Source: Zunongwangia sp. ESRF-bin46 (GTDB taxonomy: Bacteria > Bacteroidota > Bacteroidia > Flavobacteriales > Flavobacteriaceae). Taken from it: 64,000 bases of DNA. Positions 31,602 to 49,034 of the stretch are shown piece by piece. Under the pieces are notes generated by a model. That model saw nothing but the letters and a program-made list of their open reading frames with translations. It was not told where the DNA came from and did not search any database. The position numbers were made by a program, and so were the translations under genes. The stretch is taken from contig NTLF01000020.1 in NCBI GenBank assembly GCA_002631855.1, positions 124,001 through 188,000 on the forward strand, read 5' to 3'. Every line of letters starts with the position of its first letter. The first letter of the stretch is position 1.

Positions 31602-31657
31602 ATACTCATTTTTTACTTTGGCTTAAAGTAGTAAAAAGAAAATGATTTTTTAATTTA

Positions 31658-32692: not shown

Positions 32693-32777
32693 ATTTAATT
32701 GTTTAATGGTTCTTTCTTAATAGTGTAGCTTTTATGAAAAAGTTGCGTGAAACTTTAAAAAAATATTGAACATAAAA

Positions 32778-32804
32778 AAACAGCCCCTTTTAAAGAGGCT
32801 GTTT
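32778..32804 (-). terminator. Terminator of the proCBA transcript
   Basis: Stem AAACAGCC / GGCTGTTT (32778-32785 with 32797-32804) followed by T residues on the minus strand, about 20 bases after the proA stop. Confidence 0.8.
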
Positions 32805-32825
32805 GACTTTCGGTGTATTGGCTTT

Positions 32826-34025
32826 TTACACTCTTACGTGACCATCACCAAATACGTAATATTTGTTTGTCACCAATTGCTTTAGACCTAAAGGCCCGCG
32901 ATGGTGTAATTTGTCTGTGCTAATTGCTAACTCTGCACCTACGCCCATTTGTCCACCATCGGTAAATCGGGTAGAGGCGTTGTGGTATACTGCTGCACTG
33001 TCTATGTGTTCCATAAACTTTTTAGCAGCTTCTTTGTCTTCGGTTAGAATAGCGCTTGAGTGACCACCACTGTAATGGTTAATCTTTTCAATCGCATCAT
33101 CTAAACTGTCAACGGCACCAATAGCAATTTTAAGTGCTAAAAACTCTTCAAACCAAACTTTTTTATCTAGAATGACTTCAGAGTCTGTCAGTACTTTTTT
33201 CACTTCGTCATCTACAATTACTTCTACATCTGAAGCCGTAAGTACTTTTTTCAATTCTTGAAGCTTCTCTTCGTAATTTGGTAAGTTTTTATCAACTAAC
33301 ACCTTATCAAGTGCATTACATCCTGAAATTTTATCAGTTTTCGCATTGATAATAACTTCAATTGTTTTTTTCCAGTCAGCATCTTTGTGTACATATAGGA
33401 AATTGTTTCCTCTACCGCTAATTAAAACCGCGCATTTGGCGTGTTCTTTCACAAACTGAATTAATCGCTCACCACCCCGTGGTACAATTAAATCTAATTG
33501 CTCATCAGGATTTCGCAAGAATTCTTGCGTTTGTTCACGGTTCATTTGCAGCATCTTGATCCAATCTTTTGTAAGATTGTTTTCTTTTAAGGCTTGATGC
33601 CAGCAATCGACCAATATCACATTACTGTGATAGGCTTCTTTACCACCTTTCAGCAATATTTTATTATTGGCTTTAAATGCAAGTACAGCAGCTTCAATAG
33701 TTACATCTGGTCTTGATTCATAAATAATCATAATCGTCCCAAATGGTGCTGTTCTGTTATTAATCTCAAGTCCACTGTCTAATGTAAGACTTGAAATTTC
33801 TTTATTTACTGGGTCTTCCTGATTTTTAACTTCTGAAATGGCTTTTATCATGCCATCTACCTTCGCATCGTTTACTACCAAGCGATCATACAGAGCTTGA
33901 TCGTCCCTTGAAAAAGCTTCTAGATCTTTTCTATTGGCCTCTAAGATGTCTGCTCTTCTCTTATCGAGAATAGAGATCATACTTTCCAGTACGTTGTTTT
34001 TTGTTTTTGTGTCTATCAATTGCAT
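32826..34025 (-). CDS. proA: Gamma-glutamyl phosphate reductase
   Basis: 399 residues of the aldehyde dehydrogenase superfamily. It reduces gamma-glutamyl phosphate to glutamate semialdehyde, the second step of proline synthesis. Visible motifs: RTAPFGTIMIIYESRPDVT near residue 95, LKGGKEAYHSN, VPRGGERLIQFVKEHA near residue 183, and the active-site Cys region ISGCNALDKVLVD near residue 238. HHRGPLGLKQLVTNKY near the C-terminus is also family-typical. It is the last gene of proC-proB-proA. Confidence 0.95.
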   Translation of the reverse strand: MQLIDTKTKNNVLESMISILDKRRADILEANRKDLEAFSRDDQALYDRLVVNDAKVDGMIKAISEVKNQEDPVNKEISSLTLDSGLEINNRTAPFGTIMIIYESRPDVTIEAAVLAFKANNKILLKGGKEAYHSNVILVDCWHQALKENNLTKDWIKMLQMNREQTQEFLRNPDEQLDLIVPRGGERLIQFVKEHAKCAVLISGRGNNFLYVHKDADWKKTIEVIINAKTDKISGCNALDKVLVDKNLPNYEEKLQELKKVLTASDVEVIVDDEVKKVLTDSEVILDKKVWFEEFLALKIAIGAVDSLDDAIEKINHYSGGHSSAILTEDKEAAKKFMEHIDSAAVYHNASTRFTDGGQMGVGAELAISTDKLHHRGPLGLKQLVTNKYYVFGDGHVRV

Positions 34026-34059
34026 ATTTCTTTCTTTCTAAATTTATAATTAGTTTGTG

Positions 34060-34830
34060 TTACGCGTAAAAACGGGTTCCTACGTCTTTACCTTCTAATA
34101 GCTCAACAATTACATTTTTACGCTTTCCATTGGCTATAAAGGTTGGAATGTCTTTACGAGCTGTTTCTTTTGCTATTTTCAGTTTAGATTTCATGCCTCC
34201 ACGGCCTTCACCTTCACCTTTTTCATTTTTCTGAACATATTTCTCCACGTTTTGATTGTGGCGAACTTGTGCCAGTTTTTCTGAATCATCATCATCTGGG
34301 TGACCAGTATATAGGCCATCAGTATCTGTTAACAAGATTAATGCATCAGCCTGGGTTAATTCGGCTACTAAACTTGCCAACTCATCATTATCACTGAACA
34401 TCGACATTTTTAAGGAAACAGCGTCATCCTCATTTGCAATAGGTACAACACCTTCTTTCATTAACCCTTCATAACAATTAATCATATTTTCACGGTGTTT
34501 GCCTGGTGCAAAATCACGTTTAGTGGCCAATACTTGTGCACAGCGCATTCCGTGATCGTGGAATAGGCTGTAGTAATGGCGCATCATACGCGGTTGTCCA
34601 ACTGCAGAGAATATTTGCCTACGGGTAGAAGGATCGTCAGAAGAGCAATCTCCTAACACTTCCTTTCCGGCAATTGCAGATCCTGAAGAGACCAAAATGG
34701 GCTCAATATCATTTTCGTACAATTCGGCAATTTGTCGAACCAACTCATTTAAAATAGGTCCTACAATGCGGTTGTCCTTATTCGTCATAACGTTGGTTCC
34801 TACTTTTATAACCACTCGTTTTTTACTCAT
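34060..34830 (-). CDS. proB: Glutamate 5-kinase, short form without PUA domain
   Basis: About 256 residues from ATG 34830 (MSKKRVVIKVGTNVMTN). The longer frame from 34890 would overlap proC and adds a non-family 20 residues. Amino-acid-kinase motifs are clear: VVIKVGTNV, VSSGSAIAGKEVLG, IANEDDAVSL near residue 128, LLTDTDGLYTGHP near residue 155 and GRGGMKSKLKIAKETA near residue 205. E. coli ProB is 367 residues with a C-terminal PUA domain; that domain is missing, as in other Bacteroidota. Feedback inhibition by proline acts on the kinase domain and could still occur. Confidence 0.93.
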   Translation of the reverse strand: MSKKRVVIKVGTNVMTNKDNRIVGPILNELVRQIAELYENDIEPILVSSGSAIAGKEVLGDCSSDDPSTRRQIFSAVGQPRMMRHYYSLFHDHGMRCAQVLATKRDFAPGKHRENMINCYEGLMKEGVVPIANEDDAVSLKMSMFSDNDELASLVAELTQADALILLTDTDGLYTGHPDDDDSEKLAQVRHNQNVEKYVQKNEKGEGEGRGGMKSKLKIAKETARKDIPTFIANGKRKNVIVELLEGKDVGTRFYA

Positions 34831-34852
34831 GTTGTTTGTTTTAATGTTTGGT

Positions 34853-35653
34853 TTATTGTCCAAGCTCTGTAGCTCGGTTAAATGCTGCATAAGCAGCTTC
34901 TTTAATTAACTCTTTAATATTATTGTCTTCCATAGAATCTAAAGCGGCACGTGTTGTTCCTCCTTTTGAAGCAACTCTATCCATCCAACTATTTGGCGAT
35001 AGATCTGAATCGTTGAAGAGTGCAACAGCGCCTTCAAAAGTTTGGGAAACCAGTACTTTTGAATCGTTTTCTGAAAAGCCCATTTTTAAGGCTGCTTCTA
35101 GCATTGATTGCATAAAATAGAAAACATATGCAGGGCCACTTCCTGAAATACCAGTAGAGGCATTTATAAAGTTCTCATTTTCTACGTGAATGGCTTCGCC
35201 GGTAGTATCTAATAAGTTGCGAACCATAATTAGTTCTATGCGGCTTACTTCTTTAGATTCAGTAAACGAAGTAACCCCTTTACCTACCTTTGCTGGTAAA
35301 TTGGGCATTGTACGGATTACCTTTTTAATACCTAGTCCTTTTTGAATACTCTCTATTGTAATTCCAGCCATTAAAGAAACAAAAACCTGATCTTGATTGA
35401 CTTGATCTTTCATGGTTTCAAAAAGGTCTTCACTATGGTATGGTTTTACCGCAACAAAAACTACATCTGCTTTTGGCAGACAGTCTTCTAAGTTTTCATA
35501 CGCATCAAAATGCGGAATGGCACTCAATGCTTCCGTTTTTTCTGGTGAAACATCAAATATCATTAAATTTCTTCTGTTCAAGTAAGGCGATTTTGCCATA
35601 CCTTCGGCGTAGGTTAATCCCATATTTCCTGCACCAATAACTAATACTTTCAT
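34853..35653 (-). CDS. proC: Pyrroline-5-carboxylate reductase
   Basis: 266 residues. NADPH-binding start VLVIGAGNMGLTYAEGM, VFVAVKPYHSEDLF near residue 70, VIRTMPNLPAKVGKGV near residue 115 and the C-terminal P5CR signature SGSGPAYVFYFMQSMLEAALKMG with SKGGTTRAALDSMED. It carries out the last step of proline synthesis. It is the first gene of the proC-proB-proA run; the gap to proB from its stop is 22 bases. Upstream lies a set of inverted repeats (35829-35874). Confidence 0.95.
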   Translation of the reverse strand: MKVLVIGAGNMGLTYAEGMAKSPYLNRRNLMIFDVSPEKTEALSAIPHFDAYENLEDCLPKADVVFVAVKPYHSEDLFETMKDQVNQDQVFVSLMAGITIESIQKGLGIKKVIRTMPNLPAKVGKGVTSFTESKEVSRIELIMVRNLLDTTGEAIHVENENFINASTGISGSGPAYVFYFMQSMLEAALKMGFSENDSKVLVSQTFEGAVALFNDSDLSPNSWMDRVASKGGTTRAALDSMEDNNIKELIKEAAYAAFNRATELGQ

Positions 35654-35828
35654 AATTTTATTTAATTGTTTGGTCTATAGGGTGCAAGGACCATACGAGA
35701 AACCTGAGTATTTGAAATATTCGGAATTATTTGATTATTTATTCCAATAAACTCAACAAATACAGTAGTTAAGCTGCTTTCATTAATTAATTGTTAATTT
35801 TTTAACTAAAAACAGGTTAGTGCAGAAA

Positions 35829-35874
35829 TGGCAGTATTTGTCTGCCATAATGGGTATTCTGCTATATTGGCAGA
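35829..35874. repeat. Overlapping inverted repeats between pnp and proC
   Basis: TGGCAG (35829-35834) pairs with CTGCCA (35842-35847), and TCTGCCA (35841-35847) also pairs with TGGCAGA (35868-35874), so one central arm can form either of two hairpins; partial palindromes centre on ATAATGG and ATATTGG. It lies after the pnp terminator and about 180 bases before proC. It may be an operator pair or an alternative-folding RNA; no regulator is identified. The gap 35654-35828 is otherwise AT-rich with no recognised element. Confidence 0.45.
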
Positions 35875-35878
35875 TAAA

Positions 35879-35906
35879 AAAACGCCTTCTTTTAAGAAGG
35901 CGTTTT
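35879..35906 (-). terminator. Terminator of pnp
   Basis: Nearly perfect palindrome AAAACGCCTTCTT / AAGAAGGCGTTTT around TT, about 22 bases after the pnp stop; T-rich on the minus strand side. Confidence 0.85.
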
Positions 35907-35927
35907 AAAGTTTATGATGAAGAAAAT

Positions 35928-38156
35928 TTAGTCTTTTCTCTTATTATCGCGGTTTCGGTTATCGCGACCTCTATTGTTGTCACGGCTTCCACCACTGCTT
36001 TTACGCTCTTGATAGCCTTCTGGTTTTGGCTCAAGTGCTTTTTTAGAAACTTTCTCTTTTCTAGTTCTCTTATCAATACCAAAATATTTCACGTCGATCA
36101 CATCGCCCATGTTTACAACATCGGTTACGTTATCGGTTCGATCCCAAGCTAGCTCAGAAATGTGCAACAATACTTCATTGCCAGGTGCTTCAACATATTC
36201 TACTACAGCTCCAAAATCAAGTATCTTGATTACTTTAACTTCGTAAACGCTTCCTACTTCAGGTTTAAAAGTAATCGAGTCAATTTTAGCTAATACAGCA
36301 TCGATTCCTTCTTGTCCAGTTCCAAGAATTTCAACAATTCCTTCTTCTGTTTCAGGATCTTCATTAATAACAATAGTTGTATCGGTTTCTTTTTGAAGCT
36401 CTTGAATTACTTTTCCGCCTGGGCCAATTAAAGCTCCAATATATTCATTTGGAATTTTAACTGTAACCATTTTTGGTGCGTGTGATTTTACATCTGCATT
36501 TGGTGCAGAAATAGTGTCAGTTAACTTCTCAAGAATATGTAACCTTCCATCTGCAGCTTGTTTTAAAGCTTTTACAAGAATTTCGTATGAAAGACCTTTT
36601 ACTTTAATGTCCATCTGGCAAGCGGTAATTCCGTCTGCTGTTCCAGTTACTTTAAAGTCCATATCACCTAAGTGATCTTCATCTCCTAAAATATCAGAAA
36701 GTACTGCGTATTTTCCAGAATCTGCATCAGAAATTAATCCCATTGCAATACCAGAAACAGGTTTCTTTAATTGAACACCAGCATCCATCAACGCCATAGT
36801 ACCACTACATACAGTAGCCATAGAAGAAGAACCGTTAGATTCTAATACTTCTGAAACTACACGAACAGTATAAGGGCAATCTTCAGGGATCATACCTTTT
36901 AATGCACGTTGTGCTAAGTTACCGTGACCGATTTCTCTACGAGATGTCCCGCGGATTGGTCTTGCTTCTCCAGTACAGAATGGTGGGAAGTTATAGTGAA
37001 GGTAGAATGTTTCTTCGCCTTCATACGACGGCATGTCAATCTGGTTAGCTTCTCTCGAAGTACCCAAAGTAACCGTTGCCAACGCTTGTGTTTCTCCACG
37101 TGTAAAAATAGAAGAACCGTGTGTTGATGGTAAGTAGTCTACTTCACACCAGATTGGTCTAATTTCGTCTGTTTTTCTACCATCTAAACGCATTCCTTCG
37201 TTTAAGGTTAGGTCGCGAATGGCAGCTTTTTCAGTTTTGCGGTAATAATCTGAAACTAAATCACCAAATTCTTCTAATTCTTCTTCAGAAAAAGTGGCTT
37301 TGATTTCTTCTTTTATTTCAGAAAATGCTGCGCCTCTTTCGTGCTTTGAAGAGCCTGCTTTAGCTACGGCGTACACTTTGTCGTATGCCATATCATGAAC
37401 TTTCTTTTCTAGATCAGCATCTTCATTTCCTTCTGTTTCGTATTCACGTACTTCTTTTCTACCAAAGGCATCAGCTAAACGCATTTGTGCGTCTATCTGA
37501 TTTTTAATGTGTTCGTGAGCGAATTTAATGGCTTCTACCATTTCTTCTTCGCTAATTTCTTTCATTTCACCTTCAACCATCATTACAGATTCTGCTGAAG
37601 CTCCAATCATCATATCGATATCAGACTCCGCTAACTGTGCACGACTTGGGTTAATGATGAACTCACCATTTACACGTCCTACACGTGCTTCAGAAATAGC
37701 ACATTCAAAAGGGAAGTCAGAAAGTTGAATCGCTGCAGATGCAGCTAATCCAGCCATGGCATCTGGCATAACGTCATCATCGTGTGACATTAACTGAATC
37801 ATCACTTGTGTTTCAGCGTGATAATCTTTTGGAAATAATGGACGCAAAACACGGTCTACTAAACGCATGGTTAAAACTTCACCATCACTAGGTCTTGCCT
37901 CTCTTTTAAAGAAACCACCTGGGTAACGTCCAGATGCAGCAAATTTTTCACGGTAATCTACCGTTAAAGGAAGAAAAGGAAGGTCTTTTTGTTCGTAGTT
38001 AGAAACTACAGTACAAAGCAACATACATTTTCCAGATTGTACAACAACAGAGCCGTGGGCCTGTTTTGCCAGTTTTCCGGTTTCGATAGAGATTTCTCTA
38101 CCATCACCAAGGTCTATAACCTCTTTAAATACTTTAGGTATCATATTGTTTTTCAT
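35928..38156 (-). CDS. pnp: Polyribonucleotide nucleotidyltransferase (PNPase)
   Basis: 742 residues. Two RNase PH domains (first with [21 protein letters not shown] near residue 65; second with [15 protein letters not shown] near residue 345 and the catalytic region [20 protein letters not shown] near residue 497), then a KH domain ([20 protein letters not shown] near residue 580) and an S1 domain ([20 protein letters not shown] near residue 645). The tail after S1 is rich in Arg, Asn, Gly and Asp (residues 712-742), an RG-like RNA-binding extension. It degrades mRNA 3'-5' by phosphorolysis. Start at 38156 or at ATG 38144. The leader region before it is strongly structured. Confidence 0.96.
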
Positions 38157-38160
38157 TGTT

Positions 38161-38252
38161 GTGCACTCCGAAATGTATCGGAAGAGTATGCACAGTTAAA
38201 ATTGGTCGATGTCCGGTTGTCGGACAAAAGTTGTGTTGTTGTGGTGACCAAT
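38161..38252 (-). promoter_or_regulatory. Structured leader of pnp (candidate autoregulatory RNA)
   Basis: Two stacked hairpin systems directly before pnp. First: GTGCA (38161-38165) with TGCAC (38189-38193), enclosing TCCGA (38167-38171) with TCGGA (38178-38182). Second: ATTGGTC (38201-38207) with GACCAAT (38246-38252), enclosing TGTCCG (38210-38215) with CGGACA (38221-38226). In E. coli a hairpin at the same place is cut by RNase III and lets PNPase repress its own mRNA; a similar role here is inference. Confidence 0.55.
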
Positions 38253-38304
38253 GAAAAACCTAAGGGTAGCTTTTCTATGTTTTTCTATTTTAATAGAAAA
38301 AATC

Positions 38305-38329
38305 AAAAAAGGGGCTAAAAAAGCCCCTT
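38305..38329 (-). terminator. Terminator of rpsO
   Basis: AAGGGGCT (38309-38316) pairs with AGCCCCTT (38322-38329); on the minus strand a T run follows (A run 38305-38310 on +). It begins 9 bases after the rpsO stop. A close copy of this element is at 41905-41931. Confidence 0.88.
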
Positions 38330-38337
38330 AAAAATAA

Positions 38338-38607
38338 TTACTTACGTAATCCTAATTCTTTAACAATTGCACGGTATCTTAAAATATCTTTTTTCATTAG
38401 ATAATCAAGAAGCGATCTACGCTTACCTACTAACTTTACCAAAGATCTTTCTGTGTTGAAATCTTTCTGGTTAGTTTTAAGGTGTTTTGAAAGATGCTCA
38501 ATACGCTGTGTAAACAAAGCGATTTGCCCTTCGGTAGAACCGGTGTCTTTTTCAGACTTCCCGTGTTTTTTGAATAATTTTTGTTTCTCTTCTGCAGTTA
38601 AATACAT
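38338..38607 (-). CDS. rpsO: 30S ribosomal protein S15
   Basis: 89 residues, full family length, starting MYLTAEEKQKLFKKHGKSEK. The central S15 signature is GSTEGQIALFTQRIEHLSKHLK near residue 22 and the C-terminal part RSLVKLVGKRRSLLDYL near residue 54. It binds 16S rRNA at the three-way junction of helices 20-22 early in 30S assembly. It is followed by pnp, the same order as in E. coli (rpsO-pnp), but with a terminator and structured leader between. Its last 29 codons and its terminator occur again in decayed form at 41905-42028. Confidence 0.97.
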   Translation of the reverse strand: MYLTAEEKQKLFKKHGKSEKDTGSTEGQIALFTQRIEHLSKHLKTNQKDFNTERSLVKLVGKRRSLLDYLMKKDILRYRAIVKELGLRK

Positions 38608-38663
38608 GCCAATATTATTAAAATGATTTTTATGTACTGAATACCATTTTGGTAATCAAGCGG

Positions 38664-38671
38664 CAAAGATA
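38664..38671 (-). promoter_or_regulatory. Candidate -7 element of rpsO
   Basis: TATCTTTG on the minus strand, a full TAnnTTTG match, 57 bases before the rpsO ATG, giving a predicted leader of about 50 bases that could hold an S15 autoregulatory site. Confidence 0.55.
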
Positions 38672-38704
38672 AGCTAAAAAATAATAAATAAGCCTTTAAT
38701 GCTA

Positions 38705-38737
38705 TTGTTTTTTAATAGCTGAAATTTAGTAAATTTG
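38705..38737 (+). promoter_or_regulatory. Promoter of the HYC_CC_PP-receptor-HMA module
   Basis: TTG at 38705-38707 (-33) and TAAATTTG at 38730-38737 (-7), 22 bases apart, fit the Bacteroidota promoter. The -7 element ends only 4 bases before the GTG start at 38742, so the transcript may begin at or next to the start codon. Confidence 0.6.
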
Positions 38738-38741
38738 CGTC

Positions 38742-39161
38742 GTGAAACTAAAATTTCTACATAGTTTTTTTTCTTTTCTATTGGCAATATTAATTTTATT
38801 GTCAACTAGTTCTTTTACTATAAAAAAACATTTTTGTAGTGGATTCCTTATTGATTCGGCTGTTTTTACCCAAGTAGAAAAATGCTCTAATGAACCTTGT
38901 TCTGATTCTTCTAAAGAAACCATCGTTACACAACCCGATTGTTGTGATGATGTAATAGACATAGTAGAGGGACAAGAAGTTGTTATTCATAAAAAAATTG
39001 ATGATTTAGATTATCATCAGCAATTATTTTTATTAGCCTTTACAGAATCGTATTCCTACATTTTTGAAAGCTCGTCAAGACAGGTTGTTCCTCATAGACA
39101 TTACATTCCACCTATTTTGGTGCGTGACTTTCAAGTTTTCCATCAACACTTTTTAATTTGA
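38742..39161 (+). CDS. Small secreted Cys-rich protein of the HYC_CC_PP type
   Basis: 139 residues starting at GTG 38742. An N-terminal hydrophobic segment (about residues 5-22) is a signal peptide or anchor. After it come H30-F-C32 (the H-x-C motif), C48, C53, a vicinal pair C67-C68 in QPDCCDD, and HRHYIPP with P123-P124 near the C-terminus. These match the Bacteroidota family described as HYC_CC_PP, found next to TonB receptors and heavy-metal proteins. The biochemical role is unknown; a periplasmic metal-binding or metallochaperone role is inferred from Cys, His and neighbours. Confidence 0.78.
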   Translation: MKLKFLHSFFSFLLAILILLSTSSFTIKKHFCSGFLIDSAVFTQVEKCSNEPCSDSSKETIVTQPDCCDDVIDIVEGQEVVIHKKIDDLDYHQQLFLLAFTESYSYIFESSSRQVVPHRHYIPPILVRDFQVFHQHFLI

Positions 39162-39260
39162 TTTTTAAATTTTATGAAATCAAGATAGTTCTCTTTTCTT
39201 CTTTGAAGATTTGAGAAGCTATCTTCTAGAAGCCTATCCATAAAATTTATAAATTAAATA

Positions 39261-41495
39261 ATGAAAAATATAATAATAATTTTAGTTATATTTTTCCTTC
39301 CTATACTTACATTTTCTCAAAAAGTAGAAGGTGTAGTTTATGAGGGGGAAACAAACAAACCACTTTTAGGGGCTAATGTATATTGGCTCGATACAGAAGT
39401 AGGGGTGGTAACTGATTTTGACGGAGAGTTTTCAATCCCATATAAAAAATCGTACAAAAAGCTTGTTGTGAGTTATGTAGGGTTTACTTCAGATACTTTA
39501 AAGGTGACAAATCCCACAAAAAAATTGAAAGCAACTTTAAGTCCCAAGAGTAGTTTAGACGAAGTAAAACTAGTTGCCAGAAAAAAAGCAACTTCAAGGT
39601 CTTATATAGAAGCTCAAAATGTAATTAACGTAAGTAGTGACGAATTGTTAAAAGCTGCTTGTTGTAATTTATCTGAAAGTTTTGAAACCAATCCTTCTAT
39701 TGACGTAAATTTTGCCGATGCTATTTCTGGAACCAGACAGATAAAAATGTTGGGCTTAACAAGTCCATATATTCTTATCGCTATGGAAAATATTCCTACA
39801 GTGCGAGGAGCAGCTCAAGCTTATGGGTTGACATTTACACCAGGCACTTGGGTGGAAAGTATTCAAATAACCAAAGGAGCTGGAAGTGTTGTAAATGGTT
39901 ATGAAAGTATTGCAGGACAAATTAACGCAGAACTACAAAAGCCTACTAAAGACGATAAGCTCTTTGTTAATCTATATGGAGCTAGCAGTCAGCGATTCGA
40001 GTTGAATACACATTATAACACCAAAGTAAGTGATAGGTGGAGTACAGGTATTTATTTGCATGGGAACACACATCAAGAAAAACATGATGTAAATCATGAT
40101 AACTTTTTAGATATGCCACTTTACAATCAGGTTAATGTAATGAACCGCTGGCAATATACCGATACCGAAAATGGTTTTGTAGGTTTCTTAAATGTGAGAT
40201 ATCTTAATGACGAAAAGCAAACTGGAGAGTTGGATTTTGACCCAGATACCGATAAACTGACCTCCAATGCTTGGGGAAGCGAAATTGAAACCGAACGGTA
40301 CGACTTTTCGGGGAAATTTGGGTATGTAAATCCAGAACTACCATGGCGAAGTGCCGGTTTGCAATTTGCAATAAGTAACCATCAACAAAACTCTTATTTT
40401 GGTTTACGAACCTATAATATTGAACACAGCAGCATCTATTCAAATTTCACCTATAATTCAATTATTAGTGATTCTCGACATAAAATTAAAACTGGAATTA
40501 GCTTTACTTACGATAAGTATGATGAGTTGGTAGAAACCACTTCTTTTAATCGCATAGATAATTCAATAGGCGCTTTTTTTGAGTATAACTTTGATGATTT
40601 AGAAGATATTAATGTTACTGCAGGCTTGCGTGTTGATAACCATAATAGGTTAGGGGTTTTTATAACACCAAGAATACATGCAAAATACACACCTTGGGAA
40701 AAATCTGCCTTTAGAGCCTCTATAGGAAGGGGGAAACGCTCAGCAAACATATTTGCAGAAAACCAAAACCTTTTCGCTACTTCCAGAAATATTATTAATA
40801 ATCCTTCTGCTGAAGGAAATATATATGGTTTGGAGCCAGAAATTGCTTGGAACTATGGCGTGTCCTACCTTCAAGGGTTTAATCTATTTGGAAAGAAAGC
40901 AGATATAACGTTTGATTTTTATAGAACTGATTTTCAAAATCAAGTAGTGGTAGATTGGGAAAATTCTCAAGAAATTAATTTTTACAACTTAGAAGATGAA
41001 AGTTTTGCCAATAGCTTTCAAACCGAATTTAATTATAACCCATTTACAGGTTTTAATACGCGCTTAGCTTATAAATATTACGATATAAAAACGAAGTATC
41101 AAACGGGTGAAAAAATTAAACCTTTAACGGCACAACATCGTTTTTTTGCAAATGCATCGTACGAAACACCTGTTAAAAACAATAGTAAATGGAAATTTGA
41201 TGTTACTTACAATTGGTTAGGTAAACAACGGTTTCCTTCTACACAAAACAACCCGATAGAATTTCAATTGCCGAATTTTTCACCTAATGTTAATACGGTA
41301 AATGCGCAAGTAACAAAAGTATTTTCACCAAAATTTGAAATATATATAGGAGGTGAAAATATAACCAATGTAAGACAGAACAACCCTATTTTAGGGGCAG
41401 ACAACCCATTTGGCCCAAACTTTGACAGTACATTTGTATATGGTCCAATTTTTGGAAGCCTTTATTATGCAGGGTTAAGATATAGAATTAAGTAA
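39261..41495 (+). CDS. TonB-dependent outer-membrane receptor, probably for a metal
   Basis: 744 residues. Signal peptide MKNIIIILVIFFLPILTFSQ, carboxypeptidase-regulatory-like domain (GVVYEGETNKPLLGANVYWL, DGEFSIPYK, VVSYVGFTSD), a plug holding the unusual pair C134-C135 in KAACCNLSESFETNPS and then GTRQIKMLGLTSPYILIAMENIP, ITKGAGSVVNGYESIAGQI, and a 22-strand barrel ending in an aromatic/basic strand (YYAGLRYRIK). It is much shorter than SusC and lacks a SusD partner. Position between two Cys-rich metal-type proteins points to copper or a similar soft metal as substrate; this is inference. Confidence 0.9.
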   Translation: MKNIIIILVIFFLPILTFSQKVEGVVYEGETNKPLLGANVYWLDTEVGVVTDFDGEFSIPYKKSYKKLVVSYVGFTSDTLKVTNPTKKLKATLSPKSSLDEVKLVARKKATSRSYIEAQNVINVSSDELLKAACCNLSESFETNPSIDVNFADAISGTRQIKMLGLTSPYILIAMENIPTVRGAAQAYGLTFTPGTWVESIQITKGAGSVVNGYESIAGQINAELQKPTKDDKLFVNLYGASSQRFELNTHYNTKVSDRWSTGIYLHGNTHQEKHDVNHDNFLDMPLYNQVNVMNRWQYTDTENGFVGFLNVRYLNDEKQTGELDFDPDTDKLTSNAWGSEIETERYDFSGKFGYVNPELPWRSAGLQFAISNHQQNSYFGLRTYNIEHSSIYSNFTYNSIISDSRHKIKTGISFTYDKYDELVETTSFNRIDNSIGAFFEYNFDDLEDINVTAGLRVDNHNRLGVFITPRIHAKYTPWEKSAFRASIGRGKRSANIFAENQNLFATSRNIINNPSAEGNIYGLEPEIAWNYGVSYLQGFNLFGKKADITFDFYRTDFQNQVVVDWENSQEINFYNLEDESFANSFQTEFNYNPFTGFNTRLAYKYYDIKTKYQTGEKIKPLTAQHRFFANASYETPVKNNSKWKFDVTYNWLGKQRFPSTQNNPIEFQLPNFSPNVNTVNAQVTKVFSPKFEIYIGGENITNVRQNNPILGADNPFGPNFDSTFVYGPIFGSLYYAGLRYRIK

Positions 41496-41517
41496 TAAAC
41501 CTTAAAATTTATAAAAT

Positions 41518-41889
41518 ATGAAAACAGCTATAAGCATATTAATTTTATTAATCACAACAGTAACTTTTGCACAGAATAAAAACGCAAGAACTTCTTTAGA
41601 GGTTGACGGCATTTGTGGCATGTGTAAAGAAAGGATAGAGAAAGCAAGCATTAAAACCAAAGGCGTAAAAAGTGCAATTTGGGATGTTCAGACTCATGAA
41701 CTTAAATTGATTTACAACGAAAAGAAAACCAATTTAGATGCTATTAAAGAGAATATCTTAGCAGTAGGGCACGATGTAGAAGAATTAAAAGCTACGGACG
41801 AAGCTTATAATAGTGTTCACCCTTGTTGTAAATATAGAGATGAAGCTATAAAAGATGATCACACAGGAGAAAGTGAAAATGGTCAATAG
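41518..41889 (+). CDS. Secreted heavy-metal-associated (HMA) domain protein
   Basis: 123 residues. Signal peptide MKTAISILILLITTVTFAQ, then a ferredoxin-like HMA domain with the metal motif G31-I-C33-G-M-C36-KERIE, strands LEVDGIC, SAIWDVQTHELKLIYN and helix LDAIKENILAVGHDVEEL. After it comes HPCC (H101, C103-C104) and an acidic, His-containing tail. A CGMC motif matches the family that binds copper(I) or other soft metals. Unlike CopZ, this version is exported, so it would act in the periplasm, taking metal from or passing it to the receptor system upstream. It follows the receptor by 22 bases. Confidence 0.88.
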   Translation: MKTAISILILLITTVTFAQNKNARTSLEVDGICGMCKERIEKASIKTKGVKSAIWDVQTHELKLIYNEKKTNLDAIKENILAVGHDVEELKATDEAYNSVHPCCKYRDEAIKDDHTGESENGQ

Positions 41890-41904
41890 ATTGGATATAA
41901 GAAA

Positions 41905-41931
41905 TAAAAAAGGGGCTGAAAAAAGCCCCTT
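41905..41931 (-). terminator. Duplicate of the rpsO terminator
   Basis: AAGGGGCT (41910-41917) pairs with AGCCCCTT (41924-41931), with an A run before it on +, i.e. T run on the minus strand. It is the same element and orientation as 38305-38329 with a one-base longer loop (GAAAAAA). It also lies 16 bases after the HMA gene and could affect its mRNA. Confidence 0.75.
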
Positions 41932-41938
41932 TACATAT

Positions 41939-42028
41939 TTACTTACCTAAGATTAATTCTTTAACAATAGTAAGGTGTCTAAAAATATCCTTTTTCATAA
42001 GATAATCAAGAAGCGATTTACGCTTACC
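41939..42028 (-). pseudogene. Decayed second copy of the 3' end of rpsO (last 29 codons)
   Basis: Reading the minus strand, the last 29 codons plus stop translate as GKRKSLLDYLMKKDIFRHL and then TIVKELILGK, which aligns without gaps to the end of intact S15 (GKRRSLLDYLMKKDILRYR, AIVKELGLRK). By hand count about a dozen of some 87 bases differ. Homology stops abruptly at 42028; upstream sequence no longer encodes S15. There is no start codon in frame with S15 homology, so it is a remnant. Orientation and terminator match the intact gene 3.5 kb away. Confidence 0.85.
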
Positions 42029-42143
42029 TTTTTGGTGCCAAACGGCAGAAGTACGATGTATTATAAAGTTAAACATTTTAATCCAGAATATATTAAATAA
42101 AGACTTTTGACGTTATAGAACTAACAAACCTAAAAGAAATAAT

Positions 42144-42977
42144 ATGAAAACAAACGTATTTAAAATCAACCTTTTTGCGCTTCTAGTAGTTAGCCTTCTC
42201 TTTGTAGCTTGCTCTGAAGACAATAATACAATAGAGGAAACCGAAGCGAACTACTCCGTTGAGAATACAGCATTGGCAACCAAAACTGATAACATAGTAG
42301 AAGGAAGTTTAAGCGTAATGGAAAACGGCTATGTAGAAGTAAATGGCGAAAATAGAGGGAATACTGTAGAATCTTTATTTCCAGATTGTACAATTATTAC
42401 GTTAGAGCCTAGTGGTAATGGTGGTACGATAACCCTAGATTTTGGGGATGAATGCCAACTATTTAATGGGGCGATTGTTTCTGGTAAAATTATAATGGAA
42501 TACGGCCCTTTTGAAAACGGTTCGCGAACTATTACTTATACTTTTGAAAATTACTTTTATAATGGAAACGGAGTAGAAGGTGAAGGTGAAATAGTTCGTA
42601 AACTAGAAAATGAAAATGGTAATCCAGAGTCGACAGTAAACGAATCTATAACGGTTAGCTTTTCAGAAACAGATGTGTCGGCTACTCGAATTGGCACTAG
42701 GGTAGTAGAGTGGGTTGAAGGTGTAGGAAGTGGAAATTGGGACGATAATGTATACCACATTACTGGAAACTGGAACACTACATTAAGTAATGGTTTTGAA
42801 CGTTCTGGAGAAGTTACCGAACAATTGGTTAAAAAAATGTCTTGTTTGTGGTTGGTAAGCGGAGTTCTTGCCATAGAACAACAAAATATTACCGCAACTA
42901 TCGATTTTGGAGAGGGTGAGTGCGATGCACAAGCCACAATAACAATAAATGGTCAAGAGTTTCCTATTGGAGCTTAA
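42144..42977 (+). CDS. Lipoprotein of unknown function
   Basis: 277 residues. Lipoprotein signal ending in LLFVAC (Cys at about 23) followed by SEDNNTIEETEANYS, an acidic start typical of surface-exposed Bacteroidota lipoproteins. The mature part is beta-rich with strands such as GGTITLDFGDECQLFNGAIVSG and repeated GEGEI/ETDVSATRIG segments, and two further Cys pairs (DCTIIT...DECQLF; KMSCLW...EGECDA). No domain is recognised. It lies just past the rpsO remnant and stands alone, so whether it belongs to the metal module is unclear. Confidence 0.75.
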   Translation: MKTNVFKINLFALLVVSLLFVACSEDNNTIEETEANYSVENTALATKTDNIVEGSLSVMENGYVEVNGENRGNTVESLFPDCTIITLEPSGNGGTITLDFGDECQLFNGAIVSGKIIMEYGPFENGSRTITYTFENYFYNGNGVEGEGEIVRKLENENGNPESTVNESITVSFSETDVSATRIGTRVVEWVEGVGSGNWDDNVYHITGNWNTTLSNGFERSGEVTEQLVKKMSCLWLVSGVLAIEQQNITATIDFGEGECDAQATITINGQEFPIGA

Positions 42978-42996
42978 TAACACATATTATGATAAT

Positions 42997-43029
42997 AAAA
43001 AAAGCAGCCAAATTTGGCTGCTTTTTTTT
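42997..43029. terminator. Bidirectional terminator between the lipoprotein gene and accD
   Basis: GCAGCC (43004-43009) and GGCTGC (43016-43021) around AAATTT, flanked by A7 and T8, so it can terminate both convergent transcripts. It overlaps the first two bases of the accD stop codon on the minus strand side. Confidence 0.88.
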
Positions 43030-43894
43030 ATGCTGTCTTTTCTCGCATAGGCCTATTTAGAACTAAATCTAAATATTGATTTACACGAGTTTTTAAATCT
43101 TTACGGTGCGTAATAAAATCTAAAAAGCCATGTTCTTTTAAAAACTCTGCGGTTTGAAACCCGTCTGGTAGTTCTTGGCCTGTAGTATCTCTTACTACTC
43201 GTGGCCCGGCAAAACCAATTAAAGCACCTGGTTCGCTAATATTTATATCTCCCAACATAGCAAAGGAAGCGGTTGTCCCTCCTGTAGTAGGATCAGTACA
43301 TAAAGAAATGTATGGAATGCCGGCATCTGACAATTGTGCTAATTTAGCACTGGTCTTTGCCAATTGCATTAAAGAAAGGACGGCTTCCATCATACGGGCA
43401 CCACCACTTTTTGAAATAATCATTAGTGGGATTTTCTTTTTCAGCGAATAATCTGCCGCTCGGGCAATTTTTTCGCCCACTACGCTTCCCATGGAACCGC
43501 CAATAAAGCTAAAATCCATACAGGCAACCACTAAATCTTTACCCATAGATTTTCCTACAGCCGTACGTGCTGCATCCTTAAGACCGGTTTTCTTTTGGGC
43601 ATCTTTTAAACGATCTGGATATTTTTTCTTGTCCTCAAACTTTAAAGGATCTTTAGAAGTTAAGTTTTTATCCAGCTCTTTGTACTTATTGTTGTCAAAA
43701 AGCAATTCAAAATATTCATTGCTTCCTATCCTAACGTGGTAGCCATCTTCAGGGCTTACGTAAAAGTTTTTTTCAAGCTCTTCAGAATCAACAATTTTTC
43801 CTGTTGGAGACTTATACCATAATCCTTTTGGGACGTCTTTTTTCTCTTCGGTAGGGGTTTGAATTCCTTTTTTAGTTCTTTTAAACCAAGACAT
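43028..43894 (-). CDS. accD: Acetyl-CoA carboxylase carboxyltransferase subunit beta, zinc-finger cysteines lost
   Basis: 288 residues. The carboxyltransferase core is clear: [21 protein letters not shown] near residue 127, [13 protein letters not shown] near residue 160, [18 protein letters not shown] near residue 198 and [12 protein letters not shown] near residue 225. It makes malonyl-CoA together with AccA. In E. coli AccD the N-terminus has a four-Cys zinc ribbon; here the aligned segment ([10 protein letters not shown] at 26-35 and [13 protein letters not shown] at 44-56) has Ser29, Thr31, Ser47 and Asp50 in its place, so the metal site is gone although the fold around it is recognisable. 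It follows fbaA by 18 bases. Confidence 0.93.
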
Positions 43895-43912
43895 AGTTGA
43901 GGAGTTTTAAGG

Positions 43913-44980
43913 TTATAATGTGTTTACGTTGTTAAGGTCTTCAAAAGCCTTTTCCAATCGTTTTTTGAAAGTTAATTCGCCTTCGCGCAACCACTTTCTT
44001 GGGTCGTAATATTTTTTATTGGGCACTTCTTCGCCTTCAGGATTTCCTATTTGTGTTTTTAAATAGTCAATGTTCTTGGTTACGTAATCGCGAACCCCTT
44101 CGTTAAAGGCATATTGTAAATCGGTGTCTATGTTCATTTTAATAACTCCGTAGCCAATTGCTTCTCTTATTTCTTCAACTGTAGAACCGCTTCCACCGTG
44201 AAAAACAAAATCAATAGGGTTGTGGTCAGTGTTAAATTTTTTCTGAACATACTCTTGCGAGTTTTTAAGAATGATCGGAGTTAATTTCACATTTCCTGGC
44301 TTGTAAACGCCGTGAACATTCCCGAAGGCAGCAGCAATTGTGAACTGATCGCTTACTTTCATAAGCTCTTCATACGCATAGGCTACTTCTTCAGGCTGGG
44401 TGTACAGTTTTGAAGAATCTACATCTGTATTGTCAACACCATCTTCTTCACCACCTGTAATACCTAATTCAATTTCGAGCGTCATTCCCATTTTGCTCAT
44501 GCGCTCTAAATATTTTTTTGAAATCTCAATGTTTTCCTCAAGAGGTTCTTCTGAAAGATCAATCATATGCGAGCTGAAAAGTGGCTTTCCTTTTTCTTTA
44601 TAAAATTGCTCTCCAGCATCCAGTAAACCATCAATCCAAGGTAATAATTTTTTTGCAGCGTGATCAGTATGTAAAATAACCGTCGCTCCGTACGCTTCTG
44701 CTAAATCATGAATGTGTTTTGCACCGGCAACACCACCTAAAATAGCGGCTTTTTCGTTTTCGTTGCTCAGTCCTTTACCCGCATTAAAATAAGCACCTCC
44801 GTTAGAAAACTGTATAATTACGGGCGAGTTTAGTGCAGCAGCCGTTTCCATAACGGTATTGATGGTATTGGATCCAACAACATTTACTGCAGGCATAGCA
44901 AAGCCTTTTTCTTTAGCGTATTGGTGTATTTTTTGAACTTCGCGTCCGGTTGCTACTCCGGGCTGGATGGAATGATTCAT
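43913..44980 (-). CDS. fbaA: Fructose-bisphosphate aldolase, class II
   Basis: 355-residue zinc-dependent TIM-barrel aldolase of glycolysis and gluconeogenesis. Metal-site motifs: VILHTDHAAKKLLPW near residue 105 (two ligands), LEIELGITGGEEDGVDN near residue 178, AAFGNVHGVYKPGNV near residue 220 and DFVFHGGSGSTVEEI near residue 260, with NIDTDLQYAFNEG for substrate binding. The length and glycine-rich loop are those of the E. coli FbaA type (class IIA). It has its own promoter and is followed by accD. Confidence 0.96.
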   Translation of the reverse strand: MNHSIQPGVATGREVQKIHQYAKEKGFAMPAVNVVGSNTINTVMETAAALNSPVIIQFSNGGAYFNAGKGLSNENEKAAILGGVAGAKHIHDLAEAYGATVILHTDHAAKKLLPWIDGLLDAGEQFYKEKGKPLFSSHMIDLSEEPLEENIEISKKYLERMSKMGMTLEIELGITGGEEDGVDNTDVDSSKLYTQPEEVAYAYEELMKVSDQFTIAAAFGNVHGVYKPGNVKLTPIILKNSQEYVQKKFNTDHNPIDFVFHGGSGSTVEEIREAIGYGVIKMNIDTDLQYAFNEGVRDYVTKNIDYLKTQIGNPEGEEVPNKKYYDPRKWLREGELTFKKRLEKAFEDLNNVNTL

Positions 44981-44999
44981 AGTTTAAGTTATTTTACCA

Positions 45000-45007
45000 C
45001 AAAAGTA
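45000..45007 (-). promoter_or_regulatory. Candidate -7 element of fbaA-accD
   Basis: TACTTTTG on the minus strand, a full match, 20 bases before the fbaA ATG and after the tamL stop at 45023. Confidence 0.55.
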
Positions 45008-45022
45008 AGAATTTTTAGTGGT

Positions 45023-47578
45023 TTAGAAGGGATAGTTTATACCTATATTATAGACTGCATTTTGAAAATTATAATCTTTAAACCATCGTTCGCCAACTGG
45101 TCTGGCAGGATCGTGTGTTTTAAAGCCTATGTCAAACCTGAGCACAAAAAAACCAAAGTCGTACCGTAGTCCAAAACCAGATGCAACTCCCAGTTCTTTT
45201 AAGTCTTGAATACCTTCAAACTTAAATGCCTCTCTATCTTCATTGTCAAGAACGTTCCAAATATTACCGGCGTCGATAAAGAAGGCTCCTTTAAACGCTC
45301 CTAAAATGGTATAACGGTATTCTAAGTTGAAAGCTAATTTAAAGTTTGCTTCATTAAAATCTAAAATACCACCACTACTTCCAGGGCCTAAGTCATAAGC
45401 ACGCCAACCTCTATTGTCATTAGCGCCACCAGCAAAATAACTTCTTGTAAAGGGTATGCTGTTACTGTTTCCGTATGGTATCGCAATACCCCCAAAAGCC
45501 CTGGCGGCAAGAATATTGTCATCGTTTAGTGCCCAATGTTTTATGTATTCGGTTTCCCCTTTTATGTATTGTGAATAGGCAACCCCCAAGGTTTCGTAAT
45601 TACCGTTTGCATTTTTTTCTTGTCCGGTTGCTCGAGAGGCGAGTGATAAAAAATTACCAGCACTTTCCAGTTTCCATCGTAACCGTGAAAAGTTATTGTC
45701 GTAAATATTTTCGCGGGTGTCACGTGTCCAGGTAAAATTTGAGGCGAAAATAAGGTTGTCTTCCGTAAGTCTAAATTTACGTTCTGCTATACCCAAAACT
45801 TCGTCGTAAATTTCAGAAGAAACTGAGTTGGGAAGACTTCTGTCCAATATATCGTCAATAAATTGATTGGCCTCATCTGGAATACCAAGTTTTGGGTCTC
45901 CGGTAGGATCACCCATAAAGTCATAACCTATCTCTTCAGCAATTTCATTTAATCGGCTATAAGTGTTTTGGTATACGTTAAAATAGTTGTCTGTTCTAAG
46001 GTTACGAACATACTGTACGTTCGCTAAGTTAAATTGATTGGTTCTTATTTTTGAAGGTTTCCAACGGTAATTGAAAATGGCATTTATATTTTGCCTATCA
46101 AGCCCTATGTTGTTTTGTGCACTGAAACCAACACTTATTTCAGTGGTAGGTGACATATATTTTGGAATTATCTTGTCCGTATTTATAGGGAACAAAATTC
46201 TAGGAAACGATAGCTTTACATCTCCACCCACATCTGAAGTGTTAAAAAAACTTCCACCTTTATCTGCTGAAGAACCTACGCTACCACGGCCTGAAATTTC
46301 TAATATTTCAGCACCTCTAAAAACATTTCTAATCTGAAACGTAGAACTAAAACCAATCCCGAATTGTTGAATGGTTGAGGTGTAAGCATCAAAATCGACT
46401 CCTAAATTATATTTCTTCCTTGGTGTGAGTAGGATTGTGGTTATTAGTTTTTTCCCCGTGCTGTCCCTAGGATCTTCTTGATAGCTAATGTTGGGGTATT
46501 TAAAAACCTTTAGGTCGTTTATTTGGTTGTATGTAAGCGTGCGGTCTATATCTTTAAAAATTGAATTTGGTGTTATGGATATAGCATCGGTGATGGCTTT
46601 AGGGTTGAATTTTAATTTATCAAAACTGTACAGCTTATAACCTTCGTATTCAACCGAGTCTGTTGGTGTTTCATTTCTATTTTCGTAGCTAAAATCAGTA
46701 ACGATCCGTATTTCATTTACGGTATGCACTTTAAAGGGCTCTGTGTAGGTGCTGTCACCTTCAGTCACTTCCCTGTTTGGAATTTGATATTTTATATTGG
46801 CTTTATGTCCTGTATTTACAGTATCTGCTTCAAAACCTACATAGTCCTGATCAAAATGAAATAAACCAGAATTTCTAAACTGAATGGTTAGCCTGTCTCG
46901 TTCATCCACAAAATCACTTGCATCGTATTGCTTGCCAGATTTTATAAATGTATTAGCAATAGATTCTTGAAAAAGGGAATCGACCACAGGTGAAGCAATT
47001 TCTTTTGTAATTGAATCTACAAAATAGGCTTGATGCCTCTTAACATTATACGTAATAGTAGCCCGTTTTTTCTTGTTTTCAAGGGGTGTTACTGTGTAAT
47101 CTGCCTCGGTATTAAAGTATCCATAACTAGCATAATAGCGCTCTAAACGTTCTTTAGAGCTTTCACTTTTTTCTTTATCGATAATAACGGGCTCATCTCC
47201 AGATTTTTGCAGCCATTTATTCAGCCCTACATAACTATTGCCAATTTCCTTTACCTGTTTTTCTGAAATAAACTTGATTAACCGCTTTTCTCGATTTGGT
47301 TTTTTGTGTAACCATTTTTGATAAGTAGAATCTGGGTATGGATCAGCCAAATTATAAATATGAAGCCCGAGTGGAATACCTAAAACCGGGATTTTAGGGT
47401 TGGGTTTTTGCTTTAATTGGCTATAAACCCTGTTATCCTTAATTTCTAAGCTATCGACTATAATTTTATTTTCAGTTAACAGAAACTTATCGTCCGGTAC
47501 ACGTTTTACTGCGTTACAGGATAGAAACAGTGCGGTAACTCCTAAAAATAATGCTATTTTTGTGAGGGTTTGGGTCAA
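45023..47578 (-). CDS. tamL: BamA/TamA-family outer-membrane lipoprotein (TamL)
   Basis: About 851 residues if translation starts at TTG 47578, giving the lipoprotein signal TQTLTKIALFLGVTALFLSC with the lipid-accepting Cys after it and VKRVPDDKFLLTENKI. The longer frame from 47632 would begin before the predicted promoter (47600-47607) and was not used. POTRA-like repeats fill the middle (RERLIKFISEKQVKEIGNSY region and KARITYNVKRHQAY-type strands), and the C-terminal Omp85 barrel ends with GFGLRYDFGFFVLRFDIGFKTHDP and YNIGINYPF. A lipid-anchored BamA relative like this is a Bacteroidota feature, thought to work with TamB in outer-membrane assembly. Confidence 0.88.
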   Translation of the reverse strand: MTQTLTKIALFLGVTALFLSCNAVKRVPDDKFLLTENKIIVDSLEIKDNRVYSQLKQKPNPKIPVLGIPLGLHIYNLADPYPDSTYQKWLHKKPNREKRLIKFISEKQVKEIGNSYVGLNKWLQKSGDEPVIIDKEKSESSKERLERYYASYGYFNTEADYTVTPLENKKKRATITYNVKRHQAYFVDSITKEIASPVVDSLFQESIANTFIKSGKQYDASDFVDERDRLTIQFRNSGLFHFDQDYVGFEADTVNTGHKANIKYQIPNREVTEGDSTYTEPFKVHTVNEIRIVTDFSYENRNETPTDSVEYEGYKLYSFDKLKFNPKAITDAISITPNSIFKDIDRTLTYNQINDLKVFKYPNISYQEDPRDSTGKKLITTILLTPRKKYNLGVDFDAYTSTIQQFGIGFSSTFQIRNVFRGAEILEISGRGSVGSSADKGGSFFNTSDVGGDVKLSFPRILFPINTDKIIPKYMSPTTEISVGFSAQNNIGLDRQNINAIFNYRWKPSKIRTNQFNLANVQYVRNLRTDNYFNVYQNTYSRLNEIAEEIGYDFMGDPTGDPKLGIPDEANQFIDDILDRSLPNSVSSEIYDEVLGIAERKFRLTEDNLIFASNFTWTRDTRENIYDNNFSRLRWKLESAGNFLSLASRATGQEKNANGNYETLGVAYSQYIKGETEYIKHWALNDDNILAARAFGGIAIPYGNSNSIPFTRSYFAGGANDNRGWRAYDLGPGSSGGILDFNEANFKLAFNLEYRYTILGAFKGAFFIDAGNIWNVLDNEDREAFKFEGIQDLKELGVASGFGLRYDFGFFVLRFDIGFKTHDPARPVGERWFKDYNFQNAVYNIGINYPF

Positions 47579-47599
47579 GTGTTCAGGTTTACTTAATTT

Positions 47600-47632
47600 C
47601 AAAAATACTATAATTTGGTAAGTAAAGGTCAA
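47600..47632 (-). promoter_or_regulatory. Candidate promoter of tamL
   Basis: On the minus strand TTG at 47630-47632 (-33) and TATTTTTG at 47600-47607 (-7), 22 bases apart. It lies inside the longest tamL frame and overlaps the TTG start of the divergent RNA methyltransferase gene at 47615. Confidence 0.55.
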
Positions 47633-48340
47633 ATAAAGTTAATAACGAGTTTACAGCAAAAAAAGTACCGAGAAAAACACGGACTTTTTGTGGGCGAAGG
47701 TCCTAAAGTTATTTCAGAATTAAAACAAGAAAACCTAAAGATTCATTCTTTTTTCTCTGTAAATGAACATGAAATTACTTCTGAACATGATTTTCACGTT
47801 ACGCAAGCAGAGCTTCAGAAAATAAGCTTTTTAAAAACGGCAAATACATCATTAGCTATTTTTGAAATTCCTGAACCAAAACCTATCGAAACAAATGGCT
47901 TGACCATTGCACTCGATGCAATACGTGACCCAGGAAATTTGGGTACAATTATAAGGTTGTGCGATTGGTTTGGTGTAAAACAATTGATTTGCTCAACTGA
48001 TACTACAGATTGCTACAACCCAAAAGTTGTACAGGCGACGATGGGATCACTCGCTCGCGTTGCCATTAGATATATAGACATAGAAAACTATCTGAAAGAA
48101 ACTTCATTGCCCATTTACGGTGCTTTTATGGATGGAGAAAATGTGTACAAGAAGAAACTTTCACAAGATGCAATTGTCGTAATGGGAAATGAGGCGAATG
48201 GTGTTTCAGAAACTATTGAGAAGTTAATTACAAAGAAAATAACCATCCCACAGTTTGGTAATCAAACAACTGAAAGCTTAAACGTAGCAACGGCAACCGC
48301 AATTTTGTTAAGCGAAGCTCGGCGTTCTACTGAAATGTAA
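47615..48340 (+). CDS. SpoU/TrmH-family RNA 2'-O-methyltransferase
   Basis: 241 residues, starting at TTG 47615 (VSKGQIKLITSLQQKKYREK), since no ATG or GTG is closer. The N-terminal RNA-binding part (KHGLFVGEGPKVISEL) resembles the substrate-binding domain of TrmH/RlmB-type proteins. The C-terminal SPOUT knot has LDAIRDPGNLGTIIRLCDWFG, MGNEANGVSETI and IPQFGNQTTESLNVATATAI, the three SpoU motifs with the Arg, Glu and Ser/Asn residues of the SAM knot. The exact rRNA or tRNA target is unknown. Its 3' end overlaps porT by 14 bases on the other strand. Confidence 0.9.
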   Translation: MVSKGQIKLITSLQQKKYREKHGLFVGEGPKVISELKQENLKIHSFFSVNEHEITSEHDFHVTQAELQKISFLKTANTSLAIFEIPEPKPIETNGLTIALDAIRDPGNLGTIIRLCDWFGVKQLICSTDTTDCYNPKVVQATMGSLARVAIRYIDIENYLKETSLPIYGAFMDGENVYKKKLSQDAIVVMGNEANGVSETIEKLITKKITIPQFGNQTTESLNVATATAILLSEARRSTEM

Positions 48341-49034
48341 AATTGATAAAAATACCTCGTGTGGACATCTGGCTTATGTTTCCGGTCCAAGGACTGTTTG
48401 GGTCTACATCCGGCACCAACTCATCGCTGGTAGCGAACACCCCTCGAATAGATGGTGTGAACTTAAAATAGTACAGGTAAAAATCGATACCGAAACCTAT
48501 TTCGTAATAGCTGGTGCTTTTTGTCATTCTAAACTCCCCAGCGGAATTGTCCTGCGGATTGTCTTGATTACTTGATAGGTTTAAAGAAGTAGAAATACCA
48601 CCTACAATAAAAGGTTTAAAGTTGTTTAGCCTCTTAGTGGATATTTTTAAAAGCAAGGGAACATGAATATAGGTAGATTTTACTTCACGAAGAATATCTT
48701 TTTCTTCTTCAAAACCAGGAAAACGTAGATTACGTTGTGCGTAATATAGACCAGGTTCTAGCCGTAAATTCACATAATTATTTACACGCAAGTCACCAAC
48801 TAACCCTACATTAAAGCCAACATCGCCTTCTACAAGAATGTCTGTTCTGTCGTTGGGGTTTTCGTTTTCATATTCGAATTTAAAATCATAACTGTTAAAC
48901 CCTAAAAAATATCCCCAAGTAAGAAAACGCTGGTCAAATGTTTCTCGGTTTGCCAGTCGTTCTTTATTAAAAAGCTGTGCTTGAGCGCTTTCTGCGAATA
49001 GTAATATGGCAAGTACAAAAAATAATTTCTTCAT
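48327..49034 (-). CDS. porT: Type IX secretion outer-membrane beta-barrel protein PorT
   Basis: 235 residues with signal peptide MKKLFFVLAILLFAESAQAQ, then an eight-strand-type barrel (FLTWGYFLGFNSYDFKFEYE, VGLVGDLRVNNYVNLRLEPG, HVPLLLKISTKRLNNFKPFI, YEIGFGIDFYLYYFKFTPSI). The start and the adjacent menG gene (3 bases away) match the porT-ubiE order seen in Flavobacteriia. PorT is required for export through the type IX system and for gliding (SprT in Flavobacterium); its exact role is not settled. Confidence 0.9.
   Translation of the reverse strand: MKKLFFVLAILLFAESAQAQLFNKERLANRETFDQRFLTWGYFLGFNSYDFKFEYENENPNDRTDILVEGDVGFNVGLVGDLRVNNYVNLRLEPGLYYAQRNLRFPGFEEEKDILREVKSTYIHVPLLLKISTKRLNNFKPFIVGGISTSLNLSSNQDNPQDNSAGEFRMTKSTSYYEIGFGIDFYLYYFKFTPSIRGVFATSDELVPDVDPNSPWTGNISQMSTRGIFINFTFQ

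Follow-up and report, generated by a model that had tools for sequence, protein, structure and literature searches.

A decayed second rpsO end between two gene sets in a Flavobacteriaceae chromosome, probably a scar of recombination between two alleles of one locus

The stretch of DNA analyzed here, referred to as the window, comprises 64,000 nucleotides of the marine bacterium Zunongwangia sp. ESRF-bin46 (contig NTLF01000020.1, positions 124,001 to 188,000), a genome of 3.33 Mb in 22 contigs that is designated G000. The 3' end of rpsO, the gene for ribosomal protein S15, is present twice in it, and the origin of the second, decayed copy is the subject of this analysis. The locus lies between two conserved flanks, pnp on the left (35928 to 38156, minus strand) and the carboxyl transferase gene accD on the right (43028 to 43894, minus strand). 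The intact rpsO (38338 to 38607, minus strand; 89 amino acids; Pfam PF00312, E 2.4e-31; NCBIfam TIGR00952) has an S15-Flavobacteria ribosomal leader (38605 to 38671, minus strand; Rfam RF03161, 70.1 bits, gathering threshold 46.5) and a terminator hairpin of 8 pairs (38309 to 38329, minus strand). A module of three plus-strand genes is next. It encodes an HYC_CC_PP family protein (38742 to 39161; NCBIfam NF047658, E 2.5e-27; GTG start as listed), for which a literature search found no paper; a TonB-dependent receptor (TBDR) with a carboxypeptidase-regulatory-like N-terminal domain (39261 to 41495; Pfam PF13715 and PF07715); and a secreted-looking protein with a heavy-metal-associated (HMA) domain (41518 to 41889; Pfam PF00403), in which a CGMC motif was read from the open reading frame. 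Beyond the second rpsO end is a lipoprotein-like gene (42144 to 42977, plus strand, 277 amino acids), whose product matched no Pfam or NCBIfam family at E 0.001. Despite this, the family had matches in 187 of 397 genomes of the Flavobacteriaceae. The palindrome between this gene and accD (43003 to 43022) is also found in the HMA-accD gap of the related genomes G001 and G002; by eye it is a bidirectional terminator, although the terminator scan did not report it.

A repeat search of the window recovered two copies of 131 nucleotides (38298 to 38428 and 41899 to 42029) in the same orientation, 3601 nucleotides apart from start to start, with an ungapped identity of 108/131 (82.4%). The runner-up ungapped placement of the reference copy within positions 30001 to 50000 matched at 56/131, and the best on the opposite strand at 58/131. 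Querying the whole genome with the rpsO 3' end returned exactly two places, the intact gene and the remnant. These results confirm the same-orientation doubling of the rpsO 3' end and terminator that an earlier note on this DNA had described. Its hand count of about a dozen differences in 87 coding bases was also borne out: over the last 28 codons plus the stop, the copies align without indels and differ at 12 of 87 bases.

The remnant (41939 to 42028, minus strand) retains the 29 C-terminal codons (41942 to 42028) and the stop (41939 to 41941), followed by a terminator hairpin of 9 pairs (41909 to 41932, minus strand), and its coding part is of the type of the genus. The start codon, the first part of rpsO, and the S15 leader are absent, and an Rfam scan of 35600 to 45100 at E 1 gave no S15-leader match at the second copy. 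However, rpsO-related sequence extends past 42029. Positions 42030 to 42143 hold what is left of the second copy's leader or promoter and the spacer to the lipoprotein gene, including a decayed -7 element, TACTTCTG, at 42046 to 42053 on the minus strand. Beyond an internal deletion, 42031 to 42134 can be aligned in register with the spacer that separates rpsO from the lipoprotein gene in some relatives.

The window's genome belongs to the same genus as Marixanthomonas spongiae, represented by seven genomes, G000 to G006, of which G002 is UBA3356, G003 is UBA3179, and G006 is M. spongiae HN-E44. Two gene orders are distinguished below: module type (pnp-rpsO-HYC/TBDR/HMA-accD) and lipo type (pnp-rpsO-lipoprotein-accD). 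G001, G002, G004, and G006 have the order rpsO-HYC-TBDR-HMA-accD, with neither the lipoprotein gene nor a second rpsO end, and G005 has nothing between rpsO and accD. Only G000 and G003 have rpsO-HYC-TBDR-HMA-remnant-lipoprotein-accD. The G003 remnant is at the same place but has a different, larger deletion, and the remnant is therefore not an assembly error of a single genome. The earlier note had named relatives that all carry the module, none with the remnant, as the finding that would contradict its account of an insertion or duplication. Half of this pattern was found: four of the six other genomes have the module without the remnant, one has both, and one has neither. The note had also described the module as bounded by rpsO and its copy. 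Both are indeed there, but bounding is misleading, as the module is the state of the genus and the remnant with the lipoprotein gene, found in two of the seven genomes, is the likelier addition.

Across the genomes compared, the pnp-rpsO and accD-fba flanks enclose the lipoprotein gene, the module, both, other genes, or nothing. Among 14 outgroup loci chosen by their match to the remnant DNA, 7 slots hold the lipoprotein gene without the module, 3 have no gene-sized gap (121 to 152 bp), and 4 hold other DNA. In a set of 20 loci chosen as strong lipoprotein matches, all 20 have the lipoprotein gene in the slot without the module, with two copies in three of these loci and an additional OmpA-like frame in two. 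Among 34 loci encoding a close relative of the TonB receptor, the module stands beside rpsO in 9: three in the genus, four in Mesonia, and two in Christiangramia. Three of the four Mesonia loci have extra frames in the slot, and one Christiangramia contig stops before accD. In some lipo-type genomes the receptor is located away from the slot, for example ca. 16 kb from rpsO in G033 and ca. 143 kb in G079. Because gene orders differ in this way among relatives, the rpsO-accD interval is a variable slot for alternative cargo in the Flavobacteriaceae.

The DNA beyond the remnant indicates the kind of allele from which it came. Positions 42030 to 42143 were compared with 25 lipo-type spacers and 6 module-type rows from 5 genomes, with 200 mononucleotide shuffles per row; L134 and L135, two lipo-type loci of genus g73, were left out of this test. 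Matches in register to the rpsO-lipoprotein spacers of G033 (score 44) and G318 (score 41) exceeded the shuffle maximum of 29 for each, and the G274 spacer scored 35 against a best shuffle of 33. None of the six module-type rows rose above its own shuffles. The -7 element of flavobacterial promoters is given as TAnnTTTG in the available part of the source (PMC9723704). The remnant element TACTTCTG is one change from TACTTTTG, which is found in 15 of 27 lipo-type genomes and in G005, and three changes from TATCTTTG and TATATTTG, the forms of all 11 module-type genomes. Because a lipo-type-like spacer and then the lipoprotein gene follow beyond the internal deletion, the remnant is, judging from sequence, most likely the rpsO of a second, lipo-type allele of the locus.

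This affiliation also bears on the suggestion in the earlier note that the region around rpsO was tandemly duplicated and most of one copy then lost. Two copies in the same orientation would be expected from such a history, and the coding part of the remnant is nearest the rpsO of the trio to which the window belongs (G000, G002, and G003): the two are distinguished by 12 of 87 bases, and the counts rise to 13 for G002 and G005 and 15 to 20 for G006, G004, and G001, although the margins are small. However, the DNA beyond the remnant does not repeat the spacer behind the intact rpsO; a spacer of the lipo type and the lipoprotein gene, a neighbor of rpsO in other genera, are found there instead, and we regard tandem duplication as very improbable.

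That the module integrated site-specifically at the 3' end of rpsO, as the note also considered, is less probable still and hardly credible. The repeat does include a gene 3' end and its terminator, a usual position of an attachment site. However, a family scan at E 0.001 detected no transposase or integrase among the eight window proteins from pnp to fba, the fragment lies upstream (on the 5' side) of rpsO rather than downstream of a restored gene, and in G001, G002, G004, and G006 the module sits between rpsO and accD without any repeat. The module is old in the genus and is its common state; it is therefore not a recent, repeat-bounded insertion.

These findings are best explained by a recombination in which two alleles of this locus were joined and the second rpsO fragment was left behind as a scar, an interpretation that we hold to be very probable. 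Of the histories in the earlier note, the one thus supported is recombination with DNA bringing an rpsO of its own, with gene order, spacer, and -7 element assigning the two rpsO copies to two alleles. Allele A would have been pnp-rpsO-HYC-TBDR-HMA-accD and allele B pnp-rpsO-lipoprotein-accD. One crossover would have taken place at equivalent positions in a conserved flank; the other, unequal, would have used an AAAAAAG present on both sides to connect the short HMA trailer in allele A with the rpsO terminator in allele B. The product would have contained the cargo of both alleles together with two rpsO genes. With its start, leader, and the greater part of its body removed by deletion, the redundant second rpsO would then have drifted in sequence, while its terminator hairpin stayed.

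The sequence around the proposed join is consistent with this scheme. The 16-base HMA trailer (41890 to 41905) gave an alignment score of 32 with G001 and 21 with G002, compared with 16 for the sequence downstream of the intact rpsO in the window. At AAAAAAG (41906 to 41912) the window turns into an rpsO-type terminator, and G001 and G002 turn into the accD-side palindrome. AAAAAAG is common to the HMA trailer and the rpsO terminator, and a microhomology crossover may have made the join there; the shared stretch is a 7-base A-tract and the parent of the event is outside the sample. No breakpoint was visible in the divergence profiles of accD/fba or pnp. The scar is evolutionary, clear but ordinary, and a mobile element is not its cause.

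Which allele entered which chromosome can be stated with less confidence. The rpoB tree, (G004,(G006,((G000,G002),(G001,G005)))), with Shimodaira-Hasegawa-like approximate likelihood ratio test (SH-aLRT) values of 80 to 100, has module-type genomes at its base. Therefore, the module-type arrangement would be the simplest ancestral state and the remnant with the lipoprotein gene the gain. In the lipoprotein tree, the G000 and G003 sequences stand together on a long branch (0.54) to which no partner is joined with support (85/16), and thus none of the sampled genera is the donor. We moderately favor the entry of lipo-type DNA into a module-type chromosome. In the reverse direction, which is possible though less probable, the ancestor of the trio was lipo type and received a pnp-rpsO-HYC-TBDR-HMA fragment from a module-type relative, so that the decayed copy is the native rpsO; the product is the same. 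The lipo-type -7 element of G005 implies that lipo-type alleles existed in the genus, the lipoprotein branch is of genus depth and not nested in a sampled genus, and the TBDR and HMA genes of the trio are nearer to G001 (10% and 8%) than is the flanking pnp (17%), indicating recent movement of module DNA. However, given the module-type G004, G006, G001, and G002, a passage from module to lipo to module plus lipo on the stem of the trio requires one step more.

Several observations weigh against the two-allele interpretation or the favored direction. Only 3 of the 25 lipo-type spacers exceeded their mononucleotide shuffles, two of them from one genus; the G005 spacer (score 23) did not beat its shuffle maximum of 26; and the module-type -7 element is present in 5 of 27 lipo-type leaders. 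G003 is missing from the rpoB tree because its gene is partial. None of the seven genus members has an intact lipo-type slot, G005 having neither cargo, and flank trees and divergence profiles revealed no tract of foreign descent in the flanking genes that would fix the direction. As for decay, codon-position counts for the intact G000-G006 pair (2, 2, and 4 at positions 1, 2, and 3) are near those for the remnant and intact rpsO (4, 3, and 5).

Exchange was also apparent elsewhere in the locus. The pnp tree splits the genus, placing G001 and G005 with Mesonia profundi (SH-aLRT 99), and rpoB, accD, and fba keep it together; this disagreement with the rpoB tree indicates that exchange between genera has affected the left flank. 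HMA differs by 8 to 11% among G000, G002, and G003, compared with about 2 to 5% in the flanks, and the G000 gene is equally near to those of G001 (28/360) and G003 (28/369). The excess divergence and the equal nearness point to exchange having recurred at the module's 3' end (HMA and TBDR).

The other intact rpsO pairs gave codon-position counts of 2, 1, and 7 (G001); 1, 0, and 7 (G004); 3, 0, and 12 (G083); and 5, 0, and 11 (G033). The 4, 3, and 5 of the decayed copy thus differ from what most intact pairs show (1, 0, and 7 to 3, 0, and 12). Over 60 comparable bases the G000 and G003 remnants have 7 changes in common, two of which also occur in outgroup rpsO, and differ at 5 sites; their deletions also differ. 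At fourfold sites the two genomes differ by 72/793 (9.1%), and the remnants therefore diverge about like neutral DNA; G000 and G002 differ by 7.7%. Because common changes outnumber private ones, these few sites suggest that the event may be older than the split of G002, which would then have lost the piece. Between the two genomes the terminator hairpin does not differ at all, in contrast to the 5 of 60 sites in the coding part. It is conceivable but unlikely that the hairpin was kept for use, ending or insulating the HMA transcript. The terminator scan gave no terminator-like match at the hairpin on the plus strand, and hence read-through could occur there, yielding an RNA antisense to the 3' end of rpsO.

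The event is of a known type, and the example is new. In the available part of one study (PMC2884548), dimorphic loci and small variable segments are attributed to homology-facilitated illegitimate recombination. The present locus resembles these in its alternative short cargo between the same backbone genes, with one homologous and one illegitimate join proposed and no mobile element seen. Those loci, as far as that part describes them, vary within Escherichia coli, Staphylococcus aureus, and Streptococcus pyogenes, whereas the present variation is found among species and genera, and a ribosomal gene of the flank was retained in duplicate by the unequal join. The same mechanism, homologous at one end and illegitimate at the other, is described for competent bacteria and E. 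coli in the portion of PMC3240628 available; unlike those laboratory events with selected markers, the one proposed here is natural. Streptococcus pneumoniae merodiploids formed by natural transformation, with redundant genes after unequal exchange (PMC3784515, from its available part), likewise illustrate how unequal pairing yields a gene duplicate free to decay; however, those are tandem, repeat bordered, and about 100 to 900 kb, compared with about 3.5 kb here, with the cargo of two alleles. Among the 10 listed of 310 literature matches, none deals with an rpsO duplicate in Flavobacteriaceae. The rpsO scar leaves the general picture unchanged but is a natural case in which it can be read how a chromosome comes to combine the alternative gene sets of a single locus, the scar being a spare ribosomal gene.

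Among the 397 family genomes surveyed for a second scar, 382 had an S15 match, and only G000 and G078 had more than one. The extra G078 match was rejected as a scar; it is a 30% match inside a 480-amino-acid frame on another contig. No further rpsO scar was found, in a survey so insensitive that it missed the known G003 remnant and does not prove rarity. In G003 (L041, 9050 to 11265 and 12392 to 14760) the TonB receptor is split over two frames, and pnp has a gap between two matches, reflecting either a lesion or an assembly fault. In L134 and L135, rpsO and the lipoprotein gene are separated by an OmpA-C-terminal-like frame of 268 amino acids, which in the orientation used lies on the same strand as rpsO, the domain being recognized by eye.

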